NCBI GenBank assembly: GCA_035533095.1
Contig: DATLUM010000056.1
Coordinates: 1-64,000 of the forward strand
Direction: 5' to 3'
From: Acidimicrobiales bacterium
GTDB lineage: Bacteria; Actinomycetota; Acidimicrobiia; Acidimicrobiales; Palsa-688
Length of the DNA stretch: 64,000 bases
The position numbers and the translations under genes are program-made. Numbering within the stretch: position 1 is the stretch's first letter; every line of letters starts with the position of its first letter. Shown in pieces: positions 13,002 to 56,201 of the stretch. The notes beneath the pieces are model-generated. The model did no database searches. It was given only the letters and a program-made list of their open reading frames with translations, and was not told where the DNA came from.

Positions 13002-14753
13002 TCAGTCCTCCTCCAAGGTCGGTGCAACCGGCTTCCCGGACGGGTTCGTAGACCTCAGAAGATGCTTGAGCACCTTGCCGGCCGCGTTGTGGGGCAATTC
13101 GGAACGGACCTCGAGGTGCGTCGGAACCTTGAAGGCGGCGAGCTCCTGCGCGACCCACTTTTGCACCTCGGGGAGGTCCACCGTCGCTCCCGGGCGGGTC
13201 ACCACAACCGCCTTGACCTCCTCCCCGAGCACCCTGTCGGGGACCCCGATCACCGCCGCTTCCGCGATCGCCGGGTGCTCGATGAGACGGTTCTCTATCT
13301 CGATCGGATAGATGTTCTCGCCGCCGCGCACGATCAGATCGGCCCCGCGGCCCTCGAGGAAGAGAAGGCCGCGTTCGATTCGCCCGAGCTCGCGGGTTCG
13401 GTACCAGCGGTCGGCGTCCAGCGCGGCCTCCGTCGCCTCCGGATCGTCCCAGTAGCCGGAGAAGTTGCTGGGACCGCGCAGGCAGATCTCTCCCACCTCG
13501 CCGGCGGGCAGCACCTCGCCTTCGGGGCCGCGCACGCAGATCTCGTATCCGGGAACGGGCGCGCCGACCGCATCGGGATGTTCCACCGCCGCCCGGCCAT
13601 CCTGGTGCGTCCCGGCGCCGCACGTCTCGGTCATCCCGTAGCCGGTCGCCATCCTGGTGACCTGAGGCAGCTTCTCCCGCACGGCGCGCCAGAGCTCCGG
13701 CTGGAACGTCGACCCGCCTCCGCCGATCCTGCGCAAGGAAGAAAGATCGAACTCGCCGAGGCGCGGGTGCTCGAGGATCCGCCACAGCTGGGTCGGCACG
13801 ATCGACCACGCAGCAGCGCGGAACCTCTCGGTCATCTCCATGTGCACCTCCGGGTCCCAGCGCCCCGCCGGCGGGTACGCGATGGTGGCGCCGATGAGGG
13901 ACCCTCCGATCAGCGCTACGGAGAAGCCCGAGATGTGGAACATCGGAGAGACGCCGATCGAGCACTGCTGGCCGGTCTGCGGCGGGCCATCGCCGGAAGC
14001 ACCGAACGTCCCCTGGCTAGAAGCCAGTTCCAGGATTGCCCCTACCTGACCCTGCAGCGCCGCCTGCATCATCATGTTCACGTGGTTGCGGTGGGTGAGC
14101 ACCGCGCCCTTGGGCCGCCCGGTCGTCCCGCTCGTGAACAGGATGCACAGGGGGTCGTCCTCGGCGATCTGGTCGAGGGGTAGGGACCTGTCATCGCCGC
14201 GTTCGACGAGTGAGTCGAAGTCGTCCTCGATGCACACGAGCGGAACGTCGATCGATCCGCCGGGGAGCCTCTCCAGGCGCCGGCGGTCCCCGAACACCAG
14301 CTTCGGGCGCGCGAGGCCGATCCCGCGGAGCATTTCCGGTCCCGTCCACCAACCGTTGAGCTCCACGACGACGGCGCCGAGACACACGGTCGCCCAGGCG
14401 ATGATGGCGTGACCGGGAATGTTGGCCGCGACGATGCCGACCCGGTCGCCCGGGCCGATGCCGAACCGGTCTGAGAGGGCACTCGCCATCCGGCGGACCG
14501 GTTCGTGGATCCCCCTGTGGGTGTAGGTGCGGTCGGGGAAGATCAGAAACGGCTGCTCGCCGAAACGGTCGGCTCCGAACTCGAGCATTTGCCGAGCCGA
14601 ACGTGGGCGGCGGGCGAACACCTGCATGTCGGCGCCGAGGACGTTCTCCTCGCGCATCTGGAACGGTGCGCCAGGTCCGGTGAGCGCGTCTCTTGCCTGG
14701 TCGGGAAGAAGCCGGTCCTCGTCCCAGCGAAGGTACGCGAGCCCCGGTGTCAC
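13002..14753 (-). CDS. Acyl-CoA ligase (ANL superfamily), steroid operon
   Basis: The protein is 583 residues if started at GTG 14753, which overlaps the amidohydrolase stop (GTGA). An internal ATG (MREENVLGADM) would give a shorter form. Adenylation motifs are LFTSGTTGRPKGAV, YGMTETCG, GRGADLIVRGGENIYP and the C-terminal LPHNAAGKVLKHLL with the catalytic Lys. It activates a carboxylate as a CoA thioester, probably a shortened side chain or another steroid-derived acid. It is not clearly FadD17, FadD19 or FadD3. The operon context with EchA19 supports a side-chain role; the exact substrate is unknown. Confidence 0.85.
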   Translation of the reverse strand: MTPGLAYLRWDEDRLLPDQARDALTGPGAPFQMREENVLGADMQVFARRPRSARQMLEFGADRFGEQPFLIFPDRTYTHRGIHEPVRRMASALSDRFGIGPGDRVGIVAANIPGHAIIAWATVCLGAVVVELNGWWTGPEMLRGIGLARPKLVFGDRRRLERLPGGSIDVPLVCIEDDFDSLVERGDDRSLPLDQIAEDDPLCILFTSGTTGRPKGAVLTHRNHVNMMMQAALQGQVGAILELASSQGTFGASGDGPPQTGQQCSIGVSPMFHISGFSVALIGGSLIGATIAYPPAGRWDPEVHMEMTERFRAAAWSIVPTQLWRILEHPRLGEFDLSSLRRIGGGGSTFQPELWRAVREKLPQVTRMATGYGMTETCGAGTHQDGRAAVEHPDAVGAPVPGYEICVRGPEGEVLPAGEVGEICLRGPSNFSGYWDDPEATEAALDADRWYRTRELGRIERGLLFLEGRGADLIVRGGENIYPIEIENRLIEHPAIAEAAVIGVPDRVLGEEVKAVVVTRPGATVDLPEVQKWVAQELAAFKVPTHLEVRSELPHNAAGKVLKHLLRSTNPSGKPVAPTLEED

Positions 14754-15625
14754 TCCCGGTCGAGCCCGAGGATCCGGGCGGCGTTGTCGTGAAGGAACTT
14801 GGGCCAGACGTGGTCGCGGAAGGGCACGGACGGCATCTCCGTCATGATTCGCTCCAGGCTCAGACCCATCGGGTAGTAACCGGCGTACAGCACCTTGTCG
14901 GCGCCCCGCGTGTTGGCGAAGTCCACCACCGCCTTGGGGTAGTACTTGGGCGCGAAAGCGGAAGTGCAGTAGTGGAGCCCGGGCCATTTGAGCATCAGCT
15001 TGACGGCGAGCTCCTCCCACGGTTCGCATCCGTGCATGGTGACGAAGGTCAGGTCGGGGAAGTCGAACATCACCTCGTCGATGAGCTCGACGTGCTGGCA
15101 CATTCCCTTCAAACGCGGGCCCGGTATGCCGGCGTTGACCCACACGGAGAGTCCCAGCTCCACGCACTTGGCGTAGATGGGGTACATCTTCTTGTCGTTG
15201 ATCGGGACCTGGGGGAAGGTCCCCGCCGGGAACACGCTGACCGCGCGCGTGCCCAGCTCCCGGTGGTCGTCGACGATCTTGCGGATGGCGTCCATCCCTT
15301 GGTTGGGGTCGACGCTGGTTCTGCCGACGAACCGGTCGGGGTGCTCTCTCAGCGCCCGGTCGGAGACCCCGTCGCGGGGCGTTCCGACTACCCCGACGGC
15401 AATTCCGTAGAGGTCCATCTGCTCGAGCGTCGAGGCGACGGGATCGATGTCGCCGGTGCGGCCCTCGGGCACGTCTTTGAACATGTACTCCGCCGGGAAG
15501 CGCATGTTCTCCTTGGACTCGCGGTCCTTGGTCTGCCGGCGTATGAAGCCGTACGTCTCCCCGAAGTCCTTGACGGGGAACCCGATCATGGTGTCGATGA
15601 TCGGCTGGCCCTCGGGCATGGCCAT
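14750..15625 (-). CDS. Amidohydrolase-related (PF04909-type) protein
   Basis: This 291-residue protein has a TIM-barrel amidohydrolase-2 pattern, for example IDTMIGFPVKDFGE at the N-terminus, GLSVWVNAGIPGP, FVTMHGCEPWEEL and the C-terminal HDNAARILGLD. The N-terminal HxH metal motif typical of the superfamily is not evident (IDTMIG instead), so metal dependence is uncertain. Members sit in actinobacterial cholesterol regulons without an assigned step. It is first in its operon and divergent from the TetR gene at 15801, with a 15-bp inverted repeat between them. Confidence 0.78.
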   Translation of the reverse strand: MAMPEGQPIIDTMIGFPVKDFGETYGFIRRQTKDRESKENMRFPAEYMFKDVPEGRTGDIDPVASTLEQMDLYGIAVGVVGTPRDGVSDRALREHPDRFVGRTSVDPNQGMDAIRKIVDDHRELGTRAVSVFPAGTFPQVPINDKKMYPIYAKCVELGLSVWVNAGIPGPRLKGMCQHVELIDEVMFDFPDLTFVTMHGCEPWEELAVKLMLKWPGLHYCTSAFAPKYYPKAVVDFANTRGADKVLYAGYYPMGLSLERIMTEMPSVPFRDHVWPKFLHDNAARILGLDRE

Positions 15626-15800: not shown

Positions 15801-16472
15801 GTGGCGAGAGTCCGCCCAGTGTCCAAGCGAGCCGCCACCAGAGTCACCGCCCCACCGCTTCCGGACACCCTTTCCAGCACCCAGCGGGAACGCCGGGACC
15901 GGATCGTGCAGGCGGGACTGACGCTCCTGCGAACCCACGAACACAATCAGATCCAGATGAAGGACGTGGCCGCGGAGGCCGAGGTGGCTCTAGGAACCGT
16001 CTACCGCTATTTTCAGTCCAAGGACCACCTCTTCGCCGAGGTCCTGGCGGCTTGGGGCAGCCAGCTGCGGATCAACGTGGAGCGCAAGCCTCTCAGGGGG
16101 ACCACCAACGCGGAGCGGCTCACCGACGTCCTGCACCGTTCGATGAGAGCCTTCCAGGGGTGGCCCCAGCTGGCCCGGGTGGTCATGACGCTCGAGGCGT
16201 CCGACGACCCCTTCACCCGTGAGATCTTCGCCCGCAACATGGCCCGGAACAACGACGTATACGTCGAAGCGGTGCAAGGTCTCCCCGAGAACCTCACCCG
16301 CGACGTGGTCCGGGTCGCGACCTCGGTGTTCGACCTGCAGCTGAGGCAGTGGGTGGTCGGGGCCCAGTCGATCGCCGACGTCTACGACCGGATCAGCAAA
16401 TCGGTATGGATCATCCTCGAGTTCTCCGAGCGCCTTCCCGCCGAGTCACTCGGCCACGCGGCGCTCGCCTGA
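15801..16472 (+). CDS. TetR-family regulator, second KstR-like paralogue
   Basis: This encodes 223 residues. The helix-turn-helix reads QMKDVAAEAEVALGTVYRYF, nearly the same as the KstR-like protein at 9046 (QMRDVAARAKVALGTIYRYF), so both may read related operators. The C-terminal domain differs. It does not look like KstR2, the usual HIP-operon repressor, yet it heads the HIP gene block. The start may be GTG 15801 or GTG 15819; the purine tract AGAGAGAG abuts 15801 directly, so the choice is uncertain. It is divergent from the amidohydrolase operon and 43 bp ahead of echA20. Confidence 0.82.
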   Translation: MARVRPVSKRAATRVTAPPLPDTLSSTQRERRDRIVQAGLTLLRTHEHNQIQMKDVAAEAEVALGTVYRYFQSKDHLFAEVLAAWGSQLRINVERKPLRGTTNAERLTDVLHRSMRAFQGWPQLARVVMTLEASDDPFTREIFARNMARNNDVYVEAVQGLPENLTRDVVRVATSVFDLQLRQWVVGAQSIADVYDRISKSVWIILEFSERLPAESLGHAALA

Positions 16473-16515: not shown

Positions 16516-17277
16516 TTGCCGATCAGAACGGATATCCGCGACCAGGGAATCGCCGAGGTGGTGATGGACTGCCCGCCGGTCAACGCGCTCAGGGTCGCGG
16601 AGTGGTACGGCCTGGCTGAGGCTCTTACCAGTCTCGGCCGCGACCCTGGCGTGAGGGTCGTCGTCCTGCGCGCCGAAGGCAAGGGGTTCAACGCCGGTGT
16701 CGACATCAAGGAGATGCAGGACAAGGAGGGTTTCGAGGCGCTGATCGGAGCCAACCGGGGTTGCTTCGCCGCGTTCGCCGCCGTCTACGACTGCGCGGTC
16801 CCTGTCATCGCCGCGGTCCACGGATTCTGCCTCGGCGGTGGCATCGGCCTGGTGGGCAACGCCGACGTGGTCGTCGCCTCCGACGACGCCTATTTCGGCC
16901 TTCCCGAGGTGGACAGGGGGGCCCTCGGCGCCGCCACACATCTGAGCCGTCTGGTACCCCAGCACAAGATGCGGGCCATGGTCTACACATCCGCGACGGC
17001 ATCAGCCGCCGAGCTTCTCTCATACGGCAGTGTCTGGAAAGTGACGTCACGCTCCGATCTGATCCTCGAAGCGACCTCGCTCGCAGAAACGATCGCCGCC
17101 AAGTCCCCGACCGTCATCCGCGCGGCGAAGGAGTCGCTCAACGGGATCGACCTCTGGGACGTGAAGCGCTCGTACCGCTACGAACAGGGCTTCACCTTCG
17201 AGCTCAACCTCTCCGGGGTTGCCGACGAGCACCGTGACGCGTTCGTCGCCAAGCGCGACACCGACACGACCCGATGA
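16516..17277 (+). CDS. echA20: EchA20-like ring D hydrolase (crotonase family)
   Basis: This 253-residue protein is very similar to EchA20 (Rv3550): GKGFNAGVDIKEMQDKEGFEALI, NRGCFAAFAAVYDCAVPVIAAVHGFC, FGLPEVDRGALGAATHLSRLVPQHK and GFTFELNLSGVADEHRDAF. EchA20 opens the last carbocycle in the HIP pathway as a crotonase-type hydrolase. The start is TTG 16516, preceded by AAAGGA. The stop overlaps the ipdA ATG (ATGA). The gene order echA20-ipdA-ipdB is the same as in mycobacteria. Confidence 0.94.
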   Translation: MPIRTDIRDQGIAEVVMDCPPVNALRVAEWYGLAEALTSLGRDPGVRVVVLRAEGKGFNAGVDIKEMQDKEGFEALIGANRGCFAAFAAVYDCAVPVIAAVHGFCLGGGIGLVGNADVVVASDDAYFGLPEVDRGALGAATHLSRLVPQHKMRAMVYTSATASAAELLSYGSVWKVTSRSDLILEATSLAETIAAKSPTVIRAAKESLNGIDLWDVKRSYRYEQGFTFELNLSGVADEHRDAFVAKRDTDTTR

Positions 17278-18143
17278 GCGACACCCGGACGATGAGCAAG
17301 GTGATCACCGAAGAAGAAGTGGTTGCCCAGCTTGCAGATGGCATGACCATCGGCATCGGCGGTTGGGGAAGCCGCCGCAAGCCGATGTCGATCGTGCGGG
17401 CGATCGCACGCAGCGACCTGCGCGACCTGACGATCGTGAGCTTCGCCGGCCCCGACCTCGGCCTGTTGTGTGCATCAGGCAAGGTTTCGCGCGCGCTGTA
17501 CCCGTTCGTCTCGCTCGATTCGATCGCGCTCGAACCGCATTTCCGTGTTGCCAGGCAGAACGGCATGATCGAGGACGTTCCCTGGGACGAAGGCATGTTC
17601 GTGTTGGGACTGCAGGCAGCGGCGTGGCGGGTCCCGTTCCTTCCCAGCCGGGTCGGCCTCGGCAGTGACCTGTTGGTGCACAATCGGATGCTCCAGACCG
17701 TCCGATCCCCGTACGAGGATCAGATGGAGCTGGTGGCGGTACCGGCGATCCGCCTGGATGCGGCCATTTGCCATCTAAACCGATCCGACGCCCGAGGCAA
17801 CGCCGCGTTCCTCGGACCCGACCTCTACTTCGACGACCTGTTGCTGCGAGCTGCGCCCACGCGGCGCTTCATCTCCGTCGAGAAGGTCGTGCCCACCGCG
17901 GAGCTCGCGCGAGAAGCCGGGACCGAGCTTCGCCTCCGCATCGCCAGGATGATGGTCGATGGCGTGGTCGAGCGCGCGGGCGGTGCGCTTTTCACTTCGT
18001 GCGTACCGGATTACGAGCGCGACGAGGGCCTGCAGAAGGAGTACGCCTCGGCAGCCAGGTCGGCCGAGGCGTGGGACGCTTTCAAGAAGGAATGGGTCGA
18101 CGTGAGCGAGGAAGAGTTCCAGGCGAAGGTGCGCGCCCGATGA
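17274..18143 (+). CDS. ipdA: IpdA, COCHEA-CoA hydrolase alpha subunit
   Basis: This 289-residue member of the class I CoA-transferase fold family matches IpdA (GMTIGIGGWGSRRKPMSIVRAI, SFAGPDLGLLCASGKV). IpdAB is known to be a ring-cleaving hydrolase of the final steroid ring intermediate rather than a CoA transferase. It forms a complex with IpdB, encoded next with an ATGA overlap. It starts at ATG 17274 within the echA20 stop. The enzyme is cytoplasmic. Confidence 0.94.
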   Translation: MSDTRTMSKVITEEEVVAQLADGMTIGIGGWGSRRKPMSIVRAIARSDLRDLTIVSFAGPDLGLLCASGKVSRALYPFVSLDSIALEPHFRVARQNGMIEDVPWDEGMFVLGLQAAAWRVPFLPSRVGLGSDLLVHNRMLQTVRSPYEDQMELVAVPAIRLDAAICHLNRSDARGNAAFLGPDLYFDDLLLRAAPTRRFISVEKVVPTAELAREAGTELRLRIARMMVDGVVERAGGALFTSCVPDYERDEGLQKEYASAARSAEAWDAFKKEWVDVSEEEFQAKVRAR

Positions 18144-18907
18144 TCGCCGACCTGGTCACCCGAGCGGAGGTGTGCATCGTCGCGTTGGCCGAGTGCTTCC
18201 GCGGCGATGGCGAGATCGTCGCCAACCCCATCGGGACGATCCCGATGATCTCTGGACGCTTGGCGCGCGCCAGCTTCGAGCCGGACCTGATGGTCACCGA
18301 CGGTGAAGCCTCTCTCGTGGCAGGAGACGAAGCGTTCGCATGGCCGAACGGAAAGATCGTCGAGTACTACAACCCCTACCGCTCGATGTTCGACGTGGTG
18401 TGGTCCGGCAGGCGCCACGTCGTGATGGGTGCCTCGCAGATCGACGCCTACGGCAACCAGAACTTCGCGGCCATCGGATCGGACTACCACGCCCCCAAGA
18501 CGCAGCTGATCGGGTTCCGCGGAGCTCCGGGGAACACCGTCAACCACGCAACGAGCTACTGGGTGTCAGGGCACTCCCCCAGAGTGTTCGTGGACAAGGT
18601 CGACGTGGTCACCGGTGTCGGATGGGACCGCGCGGAGGCGGCAGGGCCGGGAGCGACCGAATTCTTCGATCTCCGCCGAGTCGTCTCGAACCTCGCGGTG
18701 CTCGACTTCGGGGGTCCCTCGCACAGGATGCGGCTGCTCAGCGTCCACCCCGGGGTCACCGTGGACGAGGTGGTCGCAGCGACCGGCTTCGAGCTGGCAA
18801 TGGCTCCCGACATCATGGAGACCCGGTTGCCCAGCGCGGAAGAGCTGAGGCTGATCAGGGAAGTGATCGATCCCGACGGGCTGCGCCGCACAGAACTACC
18901 CGACTGA
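18140..18907 (+). CDS. ipdB: IpdB, COCHEA-CoA hydrolase beta subunit
   Basis: This 255-residue protein matches IpdB: EVCIVALAECFRGDGEIVANPIGTIP near the N-terminus, GASQIDAYGNQNFAAIG and the C-terminal SVHPGVTVDEVVAATGFEL. Together with IpdA it hydrolytically opens the last ring. ATG 18140 overlaps the ipdA stop. It is followed after 38 bp by the DUF35-thiolase pair. Confidence 0.94.
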   Translation: MIADLVTRAEVCIVALAECFRGDGEIVANPIGTIPMISGRLARASFEPDLMVTDGEASLVAGDEAFAWPNGKIVEYYNPYRSMFDVVWSGRRHVVMGASQIDAYGNQNFAAIGSDYHAPKTQLIGFRGAPGNTVNHATSYWVSGHSPRVFVDKVDVVTGVGWDRAEAAGPGATEFFDLRRVVSNLAVLDFGGPSHRMRLLSVHPGVTVDEVVAATGFELAMAPDIMETRLPSAEELRLIREVIDPDGLRRTELPD

Positions 18908-18945: not shown

Positions 18946-19410
18946 ATGACGATGAGAGTGCCTGCCGTCGAAGGTTGGCTGACGGTGGACGACCAACCGG
19001 CGCTCCTGGGAAGGAAGTGCCCGAGCTGCGGCACCTACATGTTCCCGCCCACCGGCGCCTGGTGCCCCAACCCGTCCTGCAGCTGCGACGAGCTAGAGAC
19101 CGTTGCGCTTTCGCGGACCGGGACGGTGTGGAGCTACACCGACGCCCAGTATCAGCCCCCCGCCCCTTACGTCTCCCCGACCGATCCGTACAAGCCTTTC
19201 GCGATCGCCGCAGTCGAGCTCGCCGAGGAGCGCCTCGTCGTGCTCGGGCAGGTAGCCAGCGGGTACGGGGTCTCGCACCTGCATGTCGGTGCGCCCGTCG
19301 AGCTGGTCGTGGAGCCCCTCGATTACGCGGACGAGCCGGACAAGATGGTGTGGCGCTGGAGGCCCACCTCCCCTGATGCCACAGCCGGCGGGGGGGGTGA
19401 GCCTCGATGA
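18946..19410 (+). CDS. DUF35 Zn-ribbon/OB-fold protein, aldolase partner
   Basis: This 154-residue protein has a rubredoxin-like zinc ribbon with Cys25, Cys28, Cys40 and Cys45 and then an OB fold (the DUF35 arrangement). In the known Ltp2-ChsH2 system a DUF35 domain binds the thiolase-like aldolase and helps bind CoA. Here it overlaps the next gene, an Ltp homologue, by 4 bp, so the two very likely form a complex. The RBS GAAGAGG precedes ATG 18946. The Gly-rich tail (GGGGEP) looks disordered. Confidence 0.85.
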   Translation: MTMRVPAVEGWLTVDDQPALLGRKCPSCGTYMFPPTGAWCPNPSCSCDELETVALSRTGTVWSYTDAQYQPPAPYVSPTDPYKPFAIAAVELAEERLVVLGQVASGYGVSHLHVGAPVELVVEPLDYADEPDKMVWRWRPTSPDATAGGGGEPR

Positions 19411-20597
19411 GCGGCGACGTCGCGATCCTCGGAGCGGGGATGCACCCCTGGGGCAAGTGGGGAAAGCCATTCGTCACCTACGGCGTCGCTGCCGCCCGGG
19501 CAGCTCTCGAGGACGCCGGAGTCGCCTGGAGCGACGTGCAGTTCGTCGTCGGTGGTGAAACCGTCCGCAACGGCTACGGCGGCTACGTCGCCGGATCAAC
19601 GATCGCCAGGGCGCTCGGATGGAACGGCGCCAGGGTCGCGACCTGCTACGCCGCGTGCGCATCCGGCTCGGCGGGGATAGAGGCCGCCCGCACCCGCATA
19701 CTCGCCGGGCTGTGCGACATCGCCCTGGTGGTCGGAGCCGACACCACACCCAAGGGCTTCCTCGCCCCGAACGCCGGTGAGCGCTGGGACGACCCGGACT
19801 GGCTCCGGTTCCGCCTGATCGGAGCGACGAACCCCGCGTACTTCGGGCTGTACGCCCGAAGGCGGATCGACTTGTACGGCGCGAGCCCGGCCGACTTCGC
19901 CGCTGTCAAGGTGAAGAACTCCCGTCACGGGCTGCACAACCCCTACGCCCGGTACCGCAAGGAGGTGTCCGCTGACGAGGTCATGGAGTCCCCAGTCGTC
20001 GCGGACCCGCTGAGACTGCTCGACATCTGCGCCACCTCCGACGGGGCGGCGGCAGTCGTGCTCGCGTCGATGGACGCGGCCCGCCGCCTGGGGGTGGCCA
20101 ACCCGGTTCGCATCAGGTCGGTATCCACCGTCTCCCCCACCTTCCCCAACACCGTGGTCGATCTGCCCGACATCGCGACCGACTCGGCTGCGGCGGTGCC
20201 CGCGCCGGCGCTCAGCTTCCGCGAGTCGATAGCCGCGGCGGCCTACGAAGAAGCCGGTCTCGGACCGGAGGACCTCTCGCTCGCCGAGGTGTACGACCTG
20301 TCCACTGCGCTCGAGCTCGACTGGTACGAGGACATCGGGCTCTGCCAAAAGGGTGAGGCCGAGAAGCTCCTGCACGAAGGAGTGACCACCCTCGGGGGTC
20401 GCGTCCCGGTGAACCCATCAGGTGGGCTCGCGTGCTTCGGCGAGGCGGTGCCGGCGCAGGCCGTGGCCCAGGTCTGCGAGGTCACCTGGCAGCTGCGCGG
20501 GCAGGCAGGCGAACGCCAGGTGGAGGGGGCCAAGGTGGGTCTCACCATCAACCAGGGGCTCTTCGGGCACGGGTCCTGCGTGATCCTTTCCAAGTGA
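19407..20597 (+). CDS. Ltp-type thiolase-fold protein, probable retro-aldolase
   Basis: This 396-residue thiolase-fold protein has a Cys at the usual nucleophile place (ACASG, about residue 84). The usual HDCF motif is replaced by YDLS and the GHP motif by FGEAVPA, so both thiolytic histidines are missing. Ltp2 also has YDH at the first site and works as a side-chain aldolase with a DUF35 partner. I therefore favour a lyase/retro-aldol role over thiolysis. The second Ltp2 catalytic Tyr region (GEAY) is GEAV here, so it may not be Ltp2 itself (Ltp3/Ltp4 are alternatives). It is coupled to the DUF35 gene and to ipdC by 4-bp overlaps. Confidence 0.82.
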   Translation: MSGDVAILGAGMHPWGKWGKPFVTYGVAAARAALEDAGVAWSDVQFVVGGETVRNGYGGYVAGSTIARALGWNGARVATCYAACASGSAGIEAARTRILAGLCDIALVVGADTTPKGFLAPNAGERWDDPDWLRFRLIGATNPAYFGLYARRRIDLYGASPADFAAVKVKNSRHGLHNPYARYRKEVSADEVMESPVVADPLRLLDICATSDGAAAVVLASMDAARRLGVANPVRIRSVSTVSPTFPNTVVDLPDIATDSAAAVPAPALSFRESIAAAAYEEAGLGPEDLSLAEVYDLSTALELDWYEDIGLCQKGEAEKLLHEGVTTLGGRVPVNPSGGLACFGEAVPAQAVAQVCEVTWQLRGQAGERQVEGAKVGLTINQGLFGHGSCVILSK

Positions 20598-21682
20598 GTC
20601 TCGACCCGGCGGGGGCCCTGCGCACCCCGGCGTGCGATCTGCTGGGGGTGCGCTACCCCATAGTGCAGACCGGTATGGGCTGGGTCGCCGGCGCGCGGCT
20701 GGCAGCGGCAACCTCGAACGCCGGCGGTCTCGGAATTCTCGCGTCGGCGACGATGACCTACGGGCAGCTCGAGCGCGCGATCTCCGAGGTGAGGGAGCGC
20801 ACCTCCAACCCCTTCGGCGTGAACCTTCGCAGCGACCATGCCGACGTCGAGCGGTTCGTGGCGTTGCTGGTTCGCGAGGAGGTGAGGGTCGCCAGCTTCG
20901 CCCAGGCCCCGAGCGCCGCGATCATCGGCAGGCTGAAGGACGCCGGGATCGTGACCATGCCCACGATTGCGGCACCCCGGCACGCCGAGAAGGTGGCCGC
21001 ACTCGGTGTGGATGCGATGATCGCCCAGGGTCACGAGGGTGGCGGCCACACCGGCCCGATCCCGACGAGCCTTCTTCTTCCGAAGGTCACCGCCGCGGTC
21101 GACGTGCCCGTGTTGGGTGCCGGCGGTTTTCACGACGGGAGGGGGCTCGTCGCCGCGCTCGCGTGGGGTGCCGCCGGAATCGCGATGGGGACCAGGTTCC
21201 TGCTCACCAAGGAGAGCACGGTGCCCGACGAGGTGAAGGCCCGCTATCTCGCAGCAGCGTTGACCGATACGGTCGTCACCCGTTCGATCGACGGCGCCCC
21301 ACAGCGGGTGATCCGGACCGAGCTGGTCGACCACCTCGAAGGCAGGTTCCGCCCCGCGGCGGCGATGCAGGCGGTCGCCAACGCGTTGCGGTTGAGGCGC
21401 CTGACCGACACGTCCTTGCGGGCCCTGGTCAGGGAGGGGCTCGCCATGAAGCGCAACGGGGATCTCACCTGGGCGCAGGTCGCCATGGCGGCCAACGCGC
21501 CGATGCTCACCCGAGCAACCATGGTGGAGGGGCGCCTCGAGGCCGGCATCCTCCCCACCGGTCAGGTCACCGGCCTGATCGAGGAGCTACCTACGGTCTC
21601 CGAGCTGATCGAGGAGATCGTCCGAGAAGCGACCGCGACGATCTCCTCGCTCGCCGGGAGAGCGAACCCCGACGAGCGTTAG
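20594..21682 (+). CDS. ipdC: IpdC-like flavin oxidoreductase (nitronate monooxygenase family)
   Basis: This 362-residue FMN-dependent TIM-barrel protein of the 2-nitropropane dioxygenase family has GWVAGARLAAATSNAGGLGIL at the N-terminus and the FMN motifs AQGHEGGGHTG and GAGGFHDGRGLVAAL. Its place directly beyond echA20-ipdAB fits IpdC, the flavin reductase/dehydrogenase of the HIP ring D steps. The start is GTG 20594, overlapping the Ltp stop (GTGA). It is last in the plus-strand operon and convergent with fadA6. Family certainty is high; the IpdC identity rests mostly on context. Confidence 0.84.
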   Translation: MSLDPAGALRTPACDLLGVRYPIVQTGMGWVAGARLAAATSNAGGLGILASATMTYGQLERAISEVRERTSNPFGVNLRSDHADVERFVALLVREEVRVASFAQAPSAAIIGRLKDAGIVTMPTIAAPRHAEKVAALGVDAMIAQGHEGGGHTGPIPTSLLLPKVTAAVDVPVLGAGGFHDGRGLVAALAWGAAGIAMGTRFLLTKESTVPDEVKARYLAAALTDTVVTRSIDGAPQRVIRTELVDHLEGRFRPAAAMQAVANALRLRRLTDTSLRALVREGLAMKRNGDLTWAQVAMAANAPMLTRATMVEGRLEAGILPTGQVTGLIEELPTVSELIEEIVREATATISSLAGRANPDER

Positions 21683-21686
21683 GCCC

Positions 21687-21707
21687 AGCCTCGGGAGCCG
21701 GCTGGTC
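21687..21707. terminator. Candidate hairpin between convergent ipdC and fadA6
   Basis: CCAGCC (21687-21692) and GGCTGG (21702-21707) form a 6-bp GC-rich stem with a 9-nt loop between the two convergent stops. There is no T tract. It could serve both strands. Confidence 0.45.
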
Positions 21708-22860
21708 AGCCCAGGCGCTCGATGATGGTGACGTTCGCCTGGCCGCCACCCTCGCACATGGTCTGCAGGCCGTAGCGCCCCCCGGTCCTCTCGAGCTCGG
21801 CGAGCAGCGTCGTCATGAGGCGTGCTCCCGTGGCGCCGAGCGGATGACCAAGCGAAATAGCCCCACCGTTGACGTTCACCTTCGCGTGTTCGGCCCCGGT
21901 GTCGGCCAGCCACGCCAGCACGACTGAGGCGAACGCCTCGTTGATCTCGACCAGGTCGATGTCGTCGAGGCTCATTCCGGCCTTCTCCAGCGCGTACGCG
22001 GTCGCGGGTATCGGCGCCGTCAGCATCCACACCGGGTCGGCTCCCCGGACGCTGATGTGATGGATGCGCGCGCGTGGCTTCAGCCCGTGAGTCGCGAGGC
22101 CCCGCTCGTTGACGATCAGCAATGCCGCGGAAGCGTCGGATATCTGGCTGGACACCGCCGCAGTCAGCCGCCCGCCTTCGACGAGCGTCGGCAACGACGC
22201 CATCTTCTCCGGCGACGTCCCCCTCCTCGGCCCCTCGTCTTCGGTGACTCCCGCGACGGGGACGATCTGGGTTTCGAATCTCCCTTCGTCGATCGCCCTG
22301 ATAGCCCGTTCGTGCGATTCGAGGGCGAAGCGCTCCATGTCCTCGCGGCTGATCTCCCACTTCGCGGCGATCATCTCCGCGGCGCGGAACTGCGAGACCT
22401 CCTCGCCTCCGTAGCGCGACTTCCAGCCCTCGGAACCGGAGAACGGGTCGTCGAATCCGTAGGCCTGCCCGGCGAGCATGGCGGCGGTGATCGGGATCTG
22501 GCTCATGTTCTGCACCCCGCCCGCGACCACCACGTCGCTGGTTCCACTCAGCACCGCCTGAGCCGCGAAGTGGACGGCCTGCTGGGAAGAACCGCACTGG
22601 CGGTCGATGGTCGTGCCCGGTACCTCGTCCGGCAACCCTGCAGCCAGCCAGCACGTCCGGGCGATGTCACCGGCCTGCGGGCCGATGGTGTCGACGCAAC
22701 CGAAGATGACGTCCTCAACGGCGGCGGGGTCGACACCGGTGCGTTCCATCAGCGCGTTGATCGCCGCCGCGCCGAGATCTGCCGGGTGCACGCCCGACAA
22801 GCCGCCCCCTCGCTTGCCAACCGGCGTGCGGACAGCGTCGACGATGTAAGCCTCGTTCAT
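21706..22860 (-). CDS. fadA6: Acetyl-CoA acyltransferase, FadA6-like
   Basis: This is a 384-residue thiolase with intact residues: Cys89 in DRQCGSSQQA, the NEAFAS motif, His339 in GHPLGATG and Cys369 in CEGGG. It is very similar to FadA6 over its whole length, including TTIDRQCGSSQQAVHF and ARIHHISVRGADPVWML. FadA6 performs the thiolytic step on open-chain products of ring C/D degradation. It is the last gene of the long minus-strand operon that begins at fadD3 (29369). Confidence 0.94.
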   Translation of the reverse strand: MNEAYIVDAVRTPVGKRGGGLSGVHPADLGAAAINALMERTGVDPAAVEDVIFGCVDTIGPQAGDIARTCWLAAGLPDEVPGTTIDRQCGSSQQAVHFAAQAVLSGTSDVVVAGGVQNMSQIPITAAMLAGQAYGFDDPFSGSEGWKSRYGGEEVSQFRAAEMIAAKWEISREDMERFALESHERAIRAIDEGRFETQIVPVAGVTEDEGPRRGTSPEKMASLPTLVEGGRLTAAVSSQISDASAALLIVNERGLATHGLKPRARIHHISVRGADPVWMLTAPIPATAYALEKAGMSLDDIDLVEINEAFASVVLAWLADTGAEHAKVNVNGGAISLGHPLGATGARLMTTLLAELERTGGRYGLQTMCEGGGQANVTIIERLG

Positions 22861-22873
22861 GGGGTTCCTTCCT

Positions 22874-23869
22874 CTAGATCCCTAATTCTGTCGCGACGAG
22901 CGACCTGTGCGCAGCTGCCGAGCCGTGGGCGGCCGCCAGGCACCAGACCCTCTTCAGCCACATGTGCAGCGGGTAGTCGTCGGTGTAGCCCATGGCCCCG
23001 TGGCACTGAAGCGCAACCTTGGCCGCGAAGCTGGCCGCGTCGGAGGCCATCGCTTTGGCCATCGAGATCATCCTGAGGCGGTCTGCTCCGCCAGGTTCTC
23101 CCGGATAGCAGGAGTGCGACGCGGCCCAGACGGCCGGCGCGGCGAACTCCGTGCGCAGATGAGCGTTGGCGAGATGGTGCTTGACGGCCTGGAAGCTCCC
23201 GACCGCTACCCCGAACTGCTTGCGGTCCTTCACGTACGCGACGGTCGTCTCCACGAGCGCCCGGCCCAGACCCAATAGCACCGCTGAAGAAGCGAGAGCA
23301 GCGAGCTCGTCGACACCCGCCTTCGTCGCGATCGGAACCCCTTCCCCCCGGGGTGTGACCACGGCGAGGTCCCGAGTCCGGTCGACCGACCGGACCGGCT
23401 CCAGCTCCACCTGGTCCCTCGGGTACAGGGCCGCCTCGCCATCGGAGGCGACGAGGAAGTAGCCGGCGACGGTGGAGGCGGGTGCGTGGCGCGAAGGACC
23501 CGACGCCAAGGTCACGATCGACGAGCCGTCGACGATCGAGGGCAGCACGGACGCCGGGTCGCCCGCGGCGGCGATCAGGGGGACCGCCACTGCTGCGGTC
23601 TCCATCACCGGCAGGGGCAGAGCGGCGCGGCCGCACTCGGCCAGCACCACGGCCATCGTCAAGCCGTCGAGTTGCGAACCGCCGGCGGAATCGGGGGCGA
23701 GCAACCCCTGGGCACCGACAGACGCCAGCTCGCGCCACAGCGCCAGCATCGGCTCGGCGGAGCCCACCTCCCAGCACCGCTCGAGCATCCCGCTGTCGCA
23801 GCGCTTCTCCAGCAGCGAGCCGACGGTGTCTCGGACCGCAACCTGGTGGTCCTCGAACGCGAACCTCAC
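22874..23869 (-). CDS. Acyl-CoA dehydrogenase, small subunit of IpdE-type pair
   Basis: This 331-residue protein is a short and diverged ACAD, typical of one subunit of actinobacterial steroid heteromeric dehydrogenases. Recognisable parts are GAQGLLAPDSAGGS, GSFQAVKHHLANAH and the C-terminal QCHGAMGYTDDYPLHMWLKRVW. The GTG at 23869 is chosen because it lies 2 bp after the partner's stop; the longer frame upstream is a shadow. With the 23872 gene it resembles IpdE1-IpdE2, the heterotetramer that desaturates a HIP-CoA intermediate. Which paralogue is IpdE1 or IpdE2 I leave open. Confidence 0.84.
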   Translation of the reverse strand: MRFAFEDHQVAVRDTVGSLLEKRCDSGMLERCWEVGSAEPMLALWRELASVGAQGLLAPDSAGGSQLDGLTMAVVLAECGRAALPLPVMETAAVAVPLIAAAGDPASVLPSIVDGSSIVTLASGPSRHAPASTVAGYFLVASDGEAALYPRDQVELEPVRSVDRTRDLAVVTPRGEGVPIATKAGVDELAALASSAVLLGLGRALVETTVAYVKDRKQFGVAVGSFQAVKHHLANAHLRTEFAAPAVWAASHSCYPGEPGGADRLRMISMAKAMASDAASFAAKVALQCHGAMGYTDDYPLHMWLKRVWCLAAAHGSAAAHRSLVATELGI

Positions 23870-23871
23870 GC

Positions 23872-25014
23872 CTATCCCCTCGGCAACCCGAGCAGTCGCT
23901 CGGCGGCGATGTTGCGCTGGATCTCGTTGGTCCCGGCGTAGATCGGACCCGACAGGGAGAACTCGTATCCCCTCATCCACGCGTCGTCGAGCTCACCATC
24001 GTCGCCCTGAAGAGCGAGCGCCGTATCGTGGAGCCGCACGTCCATCTCTGACCACCAGATCTTGTTGAGACTCGACTCTGCTCCTGGCTTGGCGCCGTCG
24101 ACGATCGATGTGACCGCTTGGAGAGTGAACAGCCGGTAAGCCTCCGCCTCCATCCATCCCTGCGCGACATGTTCACGCAGCGATCGGTCTGCCACCGCGC
24201 CGGCGGCGTCCTTTTCCTTGTAGAGCGAGATCAACCTGTCGGCCACCGCCAGGAAACGACCCGGCGACCTCAGTGTCAGGCCTCTCTCCGACCCTGTGGT
24301 CGCCATCGCGACCGACCAACCCTGACCCACCCCCCCGAGCACGTCGTCGTCGGTCACCTCGACACCGTCGAAGAACACTTCGGCGAATCCCTCGTCACCG
24401 TCCAGGCGGCCGAATCCCCTCACCTCGACCCCCGGAGCGTCGAGCGGGACGAGGAAGTATGTGAGACCTCGATGGCGCTTGGACTCGGGGTCTGTTCGGA
24501 ACAAGCCGAACAGGTGGGTGCAGAACGCGCCCCGCGTCGTCCAGATCTTCTGGCCGTGAAGTGCCCATCCGCGCTCGGTTCGCTCGGCCCGGCTGCTGAT
24601 GCCCGCCAGGTCGCTGCCGGCGCCCGGCTCGGACCATCCCTGGCACCACAGGTCCTCCGCGGCAGCCATGCGCGGCAGGATCCTCGACTGCTGATCCGGT
24701 GTGCCGAACTCGAAGATGCTCGGCGCGAGCAGGAAGATGCCGTTCTGTGTGACCCGTTGCGGCGCTCCTGCGCGGTAGTACTCCTCCTCGAATATCAGCC
24801 ATTGCCAGAGCGACGCGCCCCGACCGCCGTACTGCTCAGGCCACGACACGACCGCCCAGCGATCCTCGTGAAGCCGGCGTTCCCACGCGAGGTGCAGCGC
24901 GAACCCTTCGCGTGTGTCACCGGACGGGAGCGCCGGCCGGGGAACGTTCTCCTCGAGCCATGCCCGAGCCTGCGCGCGGAAAGCCTCGTCCTCCGGGCTC
25001 CACGTGAGATCCAC
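23872..25014 (-). CDS. Acyl-CoA dehydrogenase, FadE30-like, IpdE-type pair
   Basis: This 380-residue ACAD contains WPEQYGGRGASLWQWLIFEEEYYRAGAPQ, LWCQGWSEPGAGSDLAG and IYAGTNEIQRNIAAERLLGLPRG, which line up with FadE30 of the KstR2 regulon. It is FAD-dependent and likely forms the catalytic heteromer with the next gene, acting on bicyclic HIP-derived CoA thioesters. ATG 25014 lies 3 bp after the SDR stop. It belongs to the fadD3-to-fadA6 operon. Confidence 0.88.
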   Translation of the reverse strand: MDLTWSPEDEAFRAQARAWLEENVPRPALPSGDTREGFALHLAWERRLHEDRWAVVSWPEQYGGRGASLWQWLIFEEEYYRAGAPQRVTQNGIFLLAPSIFEFGTPDQQSRILPRMAAAEDLWCQGWSEPGAGSDLAGISSRAERTERGWALHGQKIWTTRGAFCTHLFGLFRTDPESKRHRGLTYFLVPLDAPGVEVRGFGRLDGDEGFAEVFFDGVEVTDDDVLGGVGQGWSVAMATTGSERGLTLRSPGRFLAVADRLISLYKEKDAAGAVADRSLREHVAQGWMEAEAYRLFTLQAVTSIVDGAKPGAESSLNKIWWSEMDVRLHDTALALQGDDGELDDAWMRGYEFSLSGPIYAGTNEIQRNIAAERLLGLPRG

Positions 25015-54995: not shown

Positions 54996-56201
54996 TTACG
55001 CGGCGCGTTCGAGGATGTGAACCCCGCAGGCGGAGCCGAGCCCGATCACGTGGGCGAGGCCGACCTTGGCGTTGTCGATCTGGCGGTCCTTGGCCTCACC
55101 GCGGAGGTGCTGGCAGACCTCCCAGATGTTGGCGATACCGGTCGCTGCTATCGGGTGGCCCTTCGACTCGAGGCCACCGGACACGTTCACCGGGGTCTTC
55201 CCGTCGCGCCACGTGGCACCCGACTCGAAGAACGGGACGGCCTCACCTGGCTTGCAGAGCATCAGGTTGTCGTAGTGCACGAGCTCCGCTGTTGCGAAGC
55301 AGTCGTGCAGCTCGACGAGGTCGAGATCCTCCGGGGCGACGCCGGACTGTGTGTACGCCTGCTGCGCGGCGTTCCGGGTGAGGGTGTTGACGTCGGGCAG
55401 CACCTGGCAGGCCTCCTGCCACGGGTCCGTCGTCAGGATCGATGCAGACACCTTCACCGCCCGCCGCTGCTGGTCGGGATCGAGGGTCTTGAGCTTCGAC
55501 CCGGACACCACGACCGCCGCGGCGGCACCGTCACAGTTGGCCGAGCACATCGGGCGGGTGTTCGGGTAGGCGATCATGACGTCGTTCATGATCTCGTCGA
55601 GCGTGAACTTCTTCTGGTAGGCGGCCAGGGGGTTCAGGGTGGAGTGGGCGTGGTTCTTCTCGCTGATCCGCGCGAAGAGCTCAAACGAGGTGCCGCCGTA
55701 CTTGTGCCCGTACTCCATGCCGATCTGGGCGAAGACGCCGGGCATGGTTTCCGTGCCGATTCGCCCATCGACCGGGACGACAGCACCGTAGCGACCCCTC
55801 GGCTCGTACTTGTTGGAGTCCTTCTTTGCCTGCCCACCACCACCGAGAAGTCCGGCACCTGCGAGCTTCTCCACACCGACTGCGAGGCCCATGTCGCATT
55901 CGCCGGCCTTGACCGCCATGATCGCCGTCCGCAGCGCTGTCGCGCCTGTCGCGCAGGCGTTGGCGACGTTGTAGACCGGTATCCCAGTCTGGCCGATCTG
56001 CTTCTGGACCTGCTGGCCGATCGGAGCGCCGGCGCCCATCAGGTTGCCGGCAGCCAGGACACCTACGTCTTTGACTGTCACGTCGGCGTCGGCGAGCGCC
56101 GCCATCGCAGCCTCCGCCGCCAGGTCCACCGTGTCGAGCTCGGGGTGCTTGCCGAACCTCGTCATGTGGATTCCCAGGATCCAGATGTCGTCGCTTGCCA
56201 T
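54996..56201 (-). CDS. SCP-x/Ltp1-type thiolase with intact active site
   Basis: This is a 401-residue thiolase-fold protein with Cys83 (NACATGATAL), HDCF in ELHDCFATAEL and GHP in ESKGHPIAATG. All thiolytic residues are therefore present, unlike the Ltp homologue at 19407. It would cleave 3-ketoacyl-CoA thioesters, perhaps with branched or steroid side chains. The DUF35 gene upstream (1 bp gap) is its likely partner. The gene ends 78 bp downstream of the small protein's start. Confidence 0.88.
   Translation of the reverse strand: MASDDIWILGIHMTRFGKHPELDTVDLAAEAAMAALADADVTVKDVGVLAAGNLMGAGAPIGQQVQKQIGQTGIPVYNVANACATGATALRTAIMAVKAGECDMGLAVGVEKLAGAGLLGGGGQAKKDSNKYEPRGRYGAVVPVDGRIGTETMPGVFAQIGMEYGHKYGGTSFELFARISEKNHAHSTLNPLAAYQKKFTLDEIMNDVMIAYPNTRPMCSANCDGAAAAVVVSGSKLKTLDPDQQRRAVKVSASILTTDPWQEACQVLPDVNTLTRNAAQQAYTQSGVAPEDLDLVELHDCFATAELVHYDNLMLCKPGEAVPFFESGATWRDGKTPVNVSGGLESKGHPIAATGIANIWEVCQHLRGEAKDRQIDNAKVGLAHVIGLGSACGVHILERAA

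Follow-up and report, generated by a model that had tools for sequence, protein, structure and literature searches.

A DUF35 protein and a thiolase homologue lacking the canonical histidines: a candidate enzyme of steroid ring C/D catabolism

We analyzed a pair of adjoining genes in a stretch of 64,000 nucleotides (the window; contig DATLUM010000056.1, C56) from the genome of an Acidimicrobiales bacterium (assembly GCA_035533095.1; 3.4 Mb, 142 contigs, 96.8% complete). The two open reading frames share 4 bp (ATGA) and encode a DUF35 protein and a thiolase homologue (Table 1). The former carries the Pfam domains PF01796 and PF12172 (OB_ChsH2_C, zf-ChsH2) and was matched by phmmer to 6esq_E and to ChsH2(DUF35) of 6ok1_B; the latter carries Thiolase_N and Thiolase_C_1 and scores 709.8 bits on NCBIfam NF004715 (PRK06059), well over the curated cut-off of 424. 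Among the matches listed, the named records nearest to it belong to Acidimicrobiaceae, Acidimicrobiales and Acidiferrimicrobium (81–87% identity). The pair lies on the + strand between an ipdB-like and an ipdC-like gene, with EchA20-like and IpdA-like genes further upstream and a FadA6-like gene convergent to it. A first-pass annotation, made from the letters of the window, had placed a DUF35 gene beside an Ltp-type thiolase homologue among ring C/D genes here, as we also find, and had read the pair as a likely side-chain retro-aldolase.

Table 1. Features of the gene pair and its surroundings, with positions in the window
Feature	Position	Strand	Remarks
TetR regulator, KstR-like	15801-16472	+	NF033703 97.2 bits, under the cut-off of 280
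EchA20-like ring D hydrolase	16516-17277	+	NF005925 418 bits, cut-off 260
IpdA-like	17274-18143	+	Pfam CoA_trans; name from gene order
IpdB-like	18140-18907	+	Pfam CoA_trans; kept beside IpdA in relatives; name from gene order
DUF35 protein, ChsH2-type zinc ribbon and OB fold, 154 aa	18946-19410	+	predicted partner subunit
Thiolase-fold 'lipid-transfer protein', 396 aa	19407-20597	+	predicted catalytic subunit; NF004715 (PRK06059)
Cys84 codon, thiolase nucleophile position (YAACASG)	19656-19658	+	111/111
Y296-D-L-S299 codons, replacing HDCF	20292-20303	+	Y 110, D 111, L 110, S 107 of 111
Glu346 codon (FGEA 344-347), replacing His of GHP and Ltp2 Tyr344	20442-20444	+	111/111
IpdC-like, nitronate monooxygenase family	20624-21682	+	Pfam NMO; kept with ipdAB; name from gene order
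FadA6-like thiolase	21706-22860	-	NF005865 706.8 bits, cut-off 591
Two acyl-CoA dehydrogenase genes	22874-23980 and 23872-25014	-	Pfam

The active site of the thiolase homologue was compared across 111 distinct sequences (130 before identical ones were merged), the window's own and one 40%-identical sister included. Cys84, Asp297, Glu346, His13 and Gln351 are invariant in this alignment, Tyr296, Leu298 and His388 show one exception each and Ser299 four. With Cys84 and Glu346 kept in all 111 sequences and Tyr296 in 110, the letters at these three positions are not the outcome of drift. An alignment with reference proteins shows three patterns. BbsB, the SCP2 thiolase and 7yvy combine Cys with HD.F and GHP; in TcLtp2 and CtSal a Gly replaces the nucleophile, the HDCF motif reads YDHF or YDCY, and a Tyr or Gln stands where the GHP histidine would be; the family itself reads Cys, YDLS (YDLA in one row) and GEA. 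The nucleophile (C84) is thus shared with SCP2- and BbsB-type thiolases, whereas the histidines of HDCF or HDAF and of GHP have given way to YDLS and GEA. With the Ltp2 and Sal aldolases the family shares a Tyr at the first HDCF place (Y296), but not the Gly that replaces the nucleophile, nor the catalytic acid: Glu346 stands at the place of Ltp2 Tyr344, and also of CtSal Gln352, and Leu298 at that of CtSal Cys304. The roles of the YDHF Tyr, His296 and Tyr344 in Ltp2 and of Tyr302, Cys304 and Gln352 in Sal are described in PMC12329534. The first-pass annotation had already noted the retained Cys, YDLS in place of HDCF (296–299), the missing GHP (now FGEA, 344–347), the Tyr at the place of the Ltp2 catalytic Tyr and the loss of the second catalytic Tyr. 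Each of these is borne out, as is its caution that the chemistry may differ.

A sister subfamily bears on the origin of the Tyr. It comprises a protein encoded at locus L057 and one encoded on a Sphingopyxis plasmid, both ~40% identical to the thiolase homologue and each with an adjoining DUF35 or OB-fold gene, and its active sites read Cys, PDNS or ADNS, and GEA, so that Cys and Glu are kept in both members and Tyr in neither. Because this sister retains Cys and Glu without Tyr, Tyr296 probably arose separately from the aldolase Tyr; its presence at the aldolase position looks like convergence, Cys and Glu would be the older pair, and Tyr would be a later trait of the window's family. A Tyr at the HDCF place is not, then, proof of an aldolase.

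Phylogenetic analysis placed the family outside the aldolases. In a tree of 25 rows (in which each PDB row spans just its aligned part and L006, an open reading frame of the same genome, lacks its first 112 residues), six aldolase-like proteins, two of them proven aldolases, formed one clade (100/100) and the family another (100/100); the family joined its sister (100/99) and stood beside the SCP2 thiolase (90/88, an unstarred node). A second tree of 24 rows, from which the catalytic columns and the long-branched Ltp4-like protein had been removed, gave the same grouping, with SCP2 and BbsB nearest to the family (94/94, likewise unstarred). An approximately unbiased (AU) test rejected a grouping of the family with the aldolases to the exclusion of the sister (p 0.0019), and on NF005892, the model of the aldolase Ltp2, the thiolase homologue scores 134.3 bits, far under the cut-off of 469. 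Its AlphaFold2 model (45 sequences; pLDDT 85.6, pTM 0.90, with pLDDT below 50 in the loops 54–60, 116–123, 248–250 and 254–260) has the thiolase fold, superposing on BbsB (7pyt_B) with a VIA-align Z score of 52.0 and 2.2 A over 369 residues. An archaeal DUF35-linked thiolase (51.5) and the SCP2 thiolase (51.3) tied with BbsB, and PhlC (47.2), Ltp2 (45.0) and Sal (43.0) scored lower. Members of the aldolase clade are encoded in the same genome, at L005 (1483–2706, - strand) and L006 (1081–2604, + strand), with YDCY and YDGF motifs, respectively; L005 has a Tyr at the Ltp2 Tyr344 place, mixing Sal and Ltp2 features in one protein.

An adjoining DUF35 gene, as expected for a DUF35-dependent complex, is present in the window. 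Of the 587 loci found, the 80 best, all named and many of them from Nocardioides or Acidimicrobiia, were compared; in 78 a DUF35 gene lies upstream of the thiolase homologue, with a gap of -10 to 60 bp in 67. As to the other two, the contig of L074 starts at the gene itself, and L120 gave no DUF35 match. The DUF35 proteins of L044 and L045 have visibly lost the zinc pattern; part of the family can seemingly do without the zinc site. At least one of EchA20, IpdA, IpdB and IpdC (at least 48% identity) was found in the fetched flanks of 25 of the 80 loci, among them Acidimicrobiia, Myxococcota/Deltaproteobacteria and Acidobacteria records. Five loci from Myxococcota, Deltaproteobacteria and Proteobacteria records (L100, L106, L108, L114 and L116) share the order ipdA, ipdB, ipdC, echA20, two acyl-CoA dehydrogenase genes, DUF35, thiolase homologue, fadA6 and a short-chain dehydrogenase/reductase (SDR) gene. 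Nocardioides, Rhodococcus, Nonomuraea and mycobacterium-like loci carry the pair amid genes without steroid relatives.

We then surveyed 396 genomes drawn across the actinobacterial phylum, drafts that can miss genes. The NF004715 family was found over its cut-off in 34 genomes, EchA20 (NF005925, which we take to be the EchA20 model) in 37, an IpdA match at 1e-40 in 38 and Ltp2 (NF005892, on which TcLtp2 itself scores 686.6 bits) in 33. The IpdA-like protein of the window is 51–65% identical to the matches in the other 37 IpdA-bearing genomes (E ≤ 1.3e-77). Both EchA20 and IpdA are present in all 34 genomes with the pair. Fisher values for this association take no account of common descent; counted by genus, all 19 pair-bearing genera fall within the 21 with ring genes. 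Ltp2 was found in 28 of the 34 (the others being G000, G016, G263, G294, G374 and G382, the last just under the cut-off), so the presence of the pair follows the ring genes more closely than it follows the side-chain aldolase. Seventeen further family-bearing genomes (Myxococcota, Deltaproteobacteria, Proteobacteria, Acidobacteria and unplaced records) have EchA20, Ltp2 and FadA5 over cut-offs in 15, 14 and 12 cases. The family was not found at 1e-100 in 14 control genomes, a set that may or may not include M. tuberculosis, and the viral contigs scanned yielded no relative. Two plasmid records matched at E ≤ 1e-60: one from Nonomuraea, 11.85 Mb long, at 71.5% identity, and the Sphingopyxis sp. 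FD7 plasmid pSFD01. On the latter (L138, 14426–17182, + strand) genes for a MaoC protein, a hypothetical protein, an OB-fold protein and the sister-subfamily lipid-transfer protein stand near a Tn3-family transposase gene, and this relative is possibly mobile. At L139 (418–3034, - strand), about 5 kb from the ipdC of its ring C/D cluster, the pair-less genome G313 encodes a thiolase homologue with HDCF and GHP and, by our reading of the sequence, an HMG-CoA-synthase-like protein too. No DUF35 gene was detected adjoining this thiolase homologue in a search with the window's DUF35 protein at 1e-5, and this single case is suggestive of a canonical thiolase homologue replacing the pair.

We scanned the 150 bp upstream of DUF35 at 66 loci in whose fetched stretch, short for some contigs, no ring gene was found ('stand-alone' loci), for a KstR2 core and for the KstR core TnnAACnnGTTnnA (PMC1995591). 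A KstR-like site was found exactly in 12 of the 66 and within one mismatch in 34, against ~1.1 expected from a background of 0.0166 per region; KstR2-like sites were exact in two and within one mismatch in seven, all outside the 34, so that 41 stand-alone loci carry one or the other. At ring-cluster loci, one mismatch allowed, KstR sites were found in 0 of 32 and KstR2 sites in one. Thirty dinucleotide shuffles of the 98 regions gave means of 1.5 for KstR (34 observed) and 0.2 for KstR2 (eight observed) at the same tolerance; with many Nocardioides or Acidimicrobiia loci in the set, these counts are not independent events.

One of the mycobacterium-like loci (L038) has the pair beside a divergent polA, an S1-domain gene, presumably rpsA, and a gene for a response regulator. 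Because this gene order matches that published for the Rv1627c/Rv1628c locus of M. tuberculosis with polA (PMC1995591; PMC8856561), the pair would be the orthologue of Rv1627c/Rv1628c. In Table 3 of PMC1995591 a predicted KstR motif is given for the interval from Rv1628c to Rv1629, and a second one, likewise predicted, for MSMEG_3843, marked as the orthologue. Rv1627c has been reported as predicted to be required on cholesterol, and it appears in the cholesterol-gene table of PMC6429209. No enzyme study of Rv1627c/Rv1628c or of MSMEG_3843 and MSMEG_3842 was found in the literature searched, which lacks most subscription papers.

The pair tracks the last steps of steroid-ring degradation in several phyla, and its active site corresponds neither to that of canonical thiolases nor to that of the known DUF35 aldolases. 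These late steps have no assigned enzymes in the literature consulted: where PMC5380842 treats the cleavage of 2-methyl-beta-ketoadipyl-CoA it names no enzyme, and the step table of PMC7807495 stops at the hydratase, before the cleavage. Assignment of the pair to steroid ring catabolism is well supported, and covalent catalysis on Cys84 is likely. That the two proteins form a Cys-dependent enzyme cleaving a C–C bond in steroid ring catabolism appears probable. The fuller reading, which we favour although it falls a little short of an even chance, is that they are one enzyme of ring C/D catabolism, dependent on Cys84, which would cleave 2-methyl-3-oxoadipyl-CoA; that this is the exact substrate is the more tentative part.

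We infer the complex, the acyl-Cys, the roles of Tyr and Glu and the substrate as follows. The thiolase-fold subunit would be held with the DUF35 subunit, and Cys84 would act as nucleophile on a C–C bond of a late acyl-CoA, as in thiolase and not as in Ltp2. Occupying the positions of the GHP and HDCF histidines, respectively, Glu346 would serve as the base that activates Cys84 and would shuttle the proton, and Tyr296 would hold the oxygen of the thioester or enolate, sitting at the oxyanion of the departing enolate. This scheme leans on PhlC, which works through an acyl-Cys and an active-site Tyr with no clear base (PMC6392133). The reaction would be 2-methyl-3-oxoadipyl-CoA + CoA -> propionyl-CoA + succinyl-CoA, the end step of the pathway and, among the proposed thiolytic steps, the one whose broken bond carries an alpha-methyl group. 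Thiolases of the SCP2 and BbsB types accept alpha-methyl substrates, and BbsB itself cleaves an alpha-branched beta-keto acyl-CoA with release of succinyl-CoA; an unbranched thiolytic step can be served by FadA6 or FadA5. A long shot is that Cys, Tyr and Glu constitute a new catalytic type in the thiolase fold, cleaving a 1,3-diketone and not an ordinary beta-keto thioester: Cys84 would attack the C5 ketone of 4-methyl-3,5-dioxooctanedioyl-CoA to give succinyl-Cys84 (then succinyl-CoA) and 3-oxopentanoyl-CoA, which FadA6 would split into acetyl-CoA and propionyl-CoA. The stabilised leaving group would explain the loss of both histidines, and the final products would be those already proposed.

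Several observations weigh against cleavage of 2-methyl-3-oxoadipyl-CoA by the pair. Both histidines used by canonical thiolases are missing, and a thiolase that combines Cys, Tyr and Glu at the three positions is not known to us; the lost histidines, like the family's database name, would also suit a lipid-binding or regulatory relic of the thiolase fold that is no enzyme, which is very improbable, since the active-site letters do not vary from phylum to phylum and the DUF35 neighbour is conserved. In 21 of 78 DUF35 relatives the aligned stretch lacks the four-Cys zinc pattern. Three of the 37 EchA20 genomes lack the pair (G288, G298 and G313), which implies that it is dispensable or replaceable, and G186, whose family match (396 bits, under the cut-off) belongs to the sister subfamily, has no EchA20 or IpdA match. 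A FadA6 or PcaF-like thiolase could itself perform the 2-methyl-3-oxoadipyl-CoA step. The pair might instead serve another thiolytic or hydrolytic ring step, such as acetyl-CoA release from HIP-CoA or from the IpdAB product; it does adjoin ipdAB, ipdC and fadA6, and PMC8399759 names a distinct 'HIP thiolase' in four steroid degraders. On the other side, FadA6 passes its cut-off in every one of the 34 pair genomes except G166 (33 of 34), and in vitro FadA5 was able to take the place of FadA6 at the IpdAB-product step (PMC5380842); we regard this alternative as improbable. As for regulation, no operator lies within one mismatch at 25 of the 66 stand-alone loci, and neither consensus was found in the window, as is expected inside an operon. 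Where stand-alone operators occur they are mostly KstR and seldom KstR2 sites, and KstR is the regulator of the side-chain and ring A/B genes (PMC8399759), so that a side-chain thiolase would fit too.

Such an SCPx-like thiolase would act in the first cycle of the sterol side chain, splitting the alpha-methyl beta-keto acyl-CoA formed there to release propionyl-CoA. SCP2 thiolases do handle alpha-methyl branched substrates, and the window holds EchA19-like and CasG-like genes, both under their cut-offs; EchA19 did not discriminate as a side-chain marker, matching at 1e-60 in all 39 genomes tested and passing its cut-off in 13. We nevertheless consider this reading unlikely. The pair lies between ipdB and ipdC here and between an acyl-CoA dehydrogenase gene and FadA6 in Myxococcota, Deltaproteobacteria and Proteobacteria, and four genomes (the actinobacterial G263 and G294, and G407 and G412) have the pair and EchA20 with neither Ltp2 nor FadA5 over cut-offs. 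Moreover, a testosterone cluster, that of Novosphingobium tardaugens, contains a similar pair by description, a lipid transfer protein and a 'benzoylsuccinyl-CoA thiolase', whose role was reported as unknown (PMC6895838). A retro-aldolase, in which Tyr296 would take the beta-hydroxyl proton and Glu346 would protonate the enolate, on a side-chain substrate or on 3-hydroxy-4-methyl-5-oxooctanedioyl-CoA, has somewhat more in its favour without becoming likely: Tyr296 aligns with TcLtp2's catalytic Tyr and with Tyr302 in CtSal (PMC12329534), a DUF35 gene adjoins, Glu346 aligns with Tyr344 and Gln352, and the AU test did not reject the family, its sister and the aldolases on one side of a branch (p 0.138). 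Against it stand the Gly at the nucleophile site of known aldolases versus Cys in all 111 sequences, Leu for the catalytic Cys304 of CtSal, the separate clades with the low NF005892 score, and a sister with Cys and Glu but no Tyr. Of the first-pass annotation, then, the thiolase-fold gene with DUF35 in steroid catabolism stands, and so do the Tyr at the Ltp2 position and the possibility of a different chemistry; its side-chain retro-aldolase is set back by Cys84, the separate clade, the structure match and the co-occurrence with ring genes.

Two other identities for the pair were set aside. Atf1-ChsH4 of M. neoaurum is set apart by description, Atf1 being 56% identical to Sal1 (PMC10398937). 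The pair is probably not Ltp3/Ltp4 itself: on contig C133 the same genome carries another pair, perhaps Ltp3/Ltp4, that exceeds the cut-offs of NF006180 and NF005924. Its two thiolase-like genes (L003, 1435–3641, - strand) overlap, and neither keeps the nucleophile Cys or the HDCF and GHP histidines.

The window also encodes an HsaA-like oxygenase (NF045629, 516.4 bits, cut-off 450), HMGL/DmpG-domain and acetaldehyde dehydrogenase-domain proteins and a FadD3-family ligase. The name FadA6 for the NF005865 match is our own reading, and the first acyl-CoA dehydrogenase scores 114.4 bits on NF050027 (IpdE2), under the cut-off of 450. An amidohydrolase gene (14750–15625, - strand), for which we know of no role in steroid catabolism, adjoins the TetR gene, and the same TetR neighbour recurs in the closest relative, L058 (83% identical). 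An acyl-CoA ligase gene (13002–14720, - strand) has CasG steroid-24-oyl-CoA synthetase as its best model (500.5 bits, under the cut-off of 750), which suggests that the cluster also holds genes for side-chain degradation. Elsewhere in the window (54996–56201, - strand) lies another thiolase homologue of the SCP2 type (NF006102, 322.6 bits, under the cut-off), with canonical HDCF and GHP and 33% identity to that of the pair.

Among known systems, BbsAB (7pxp, 7pyt) resembles the pair most closely, with a DUF35 partner, a nucleophile Cys and the top structure match (tied with two others), and resembles the proposed reaction in its alpha-branched beta-keto substrate and its succinyl-CoA product; BbsB differs in having HDAF and GHP where the pair has YDLS and GEA. 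TaBbsA is counted among the DUF35 proteins in PMC12329534. SCP2-thiolase type 1 (6hrv, 6hsj) is alike in fold, in its nucleophile Cys and as a tree neighbour, and unlike in its HDCF and GHP, both of which are changed in the pair's family. Ltp2-ChsH2 (6ok1) and Sal-Shy (9myr) share the DUF35 partner, the steroid pathway and the Tyr at the first HDCF place, but have Gly for Cys and Tyr344 or Gln352 for Glu, belong to a separate clade and are more distant in structure. In M. tuberculosis the Rv1627c/Rv1628c pair, likened by gene order, is not in the ipd cluster, unlike that of the window. Finally, the acyltransferase PhlC of Pseudomonas protegens (5m3k), whose partner PhlB is listed among DUF35 proteins (PMC12329534), offers a parallel for catalysis through acyl-Cys88 and an active-site Tyr298, replacement of which nearly abolishes activity (PMC6392133); Tyr298 is a putative counterpart of Tyr296, and PhlC differs in keeping His347 at the thiolase His place and in its aromatic substrate.

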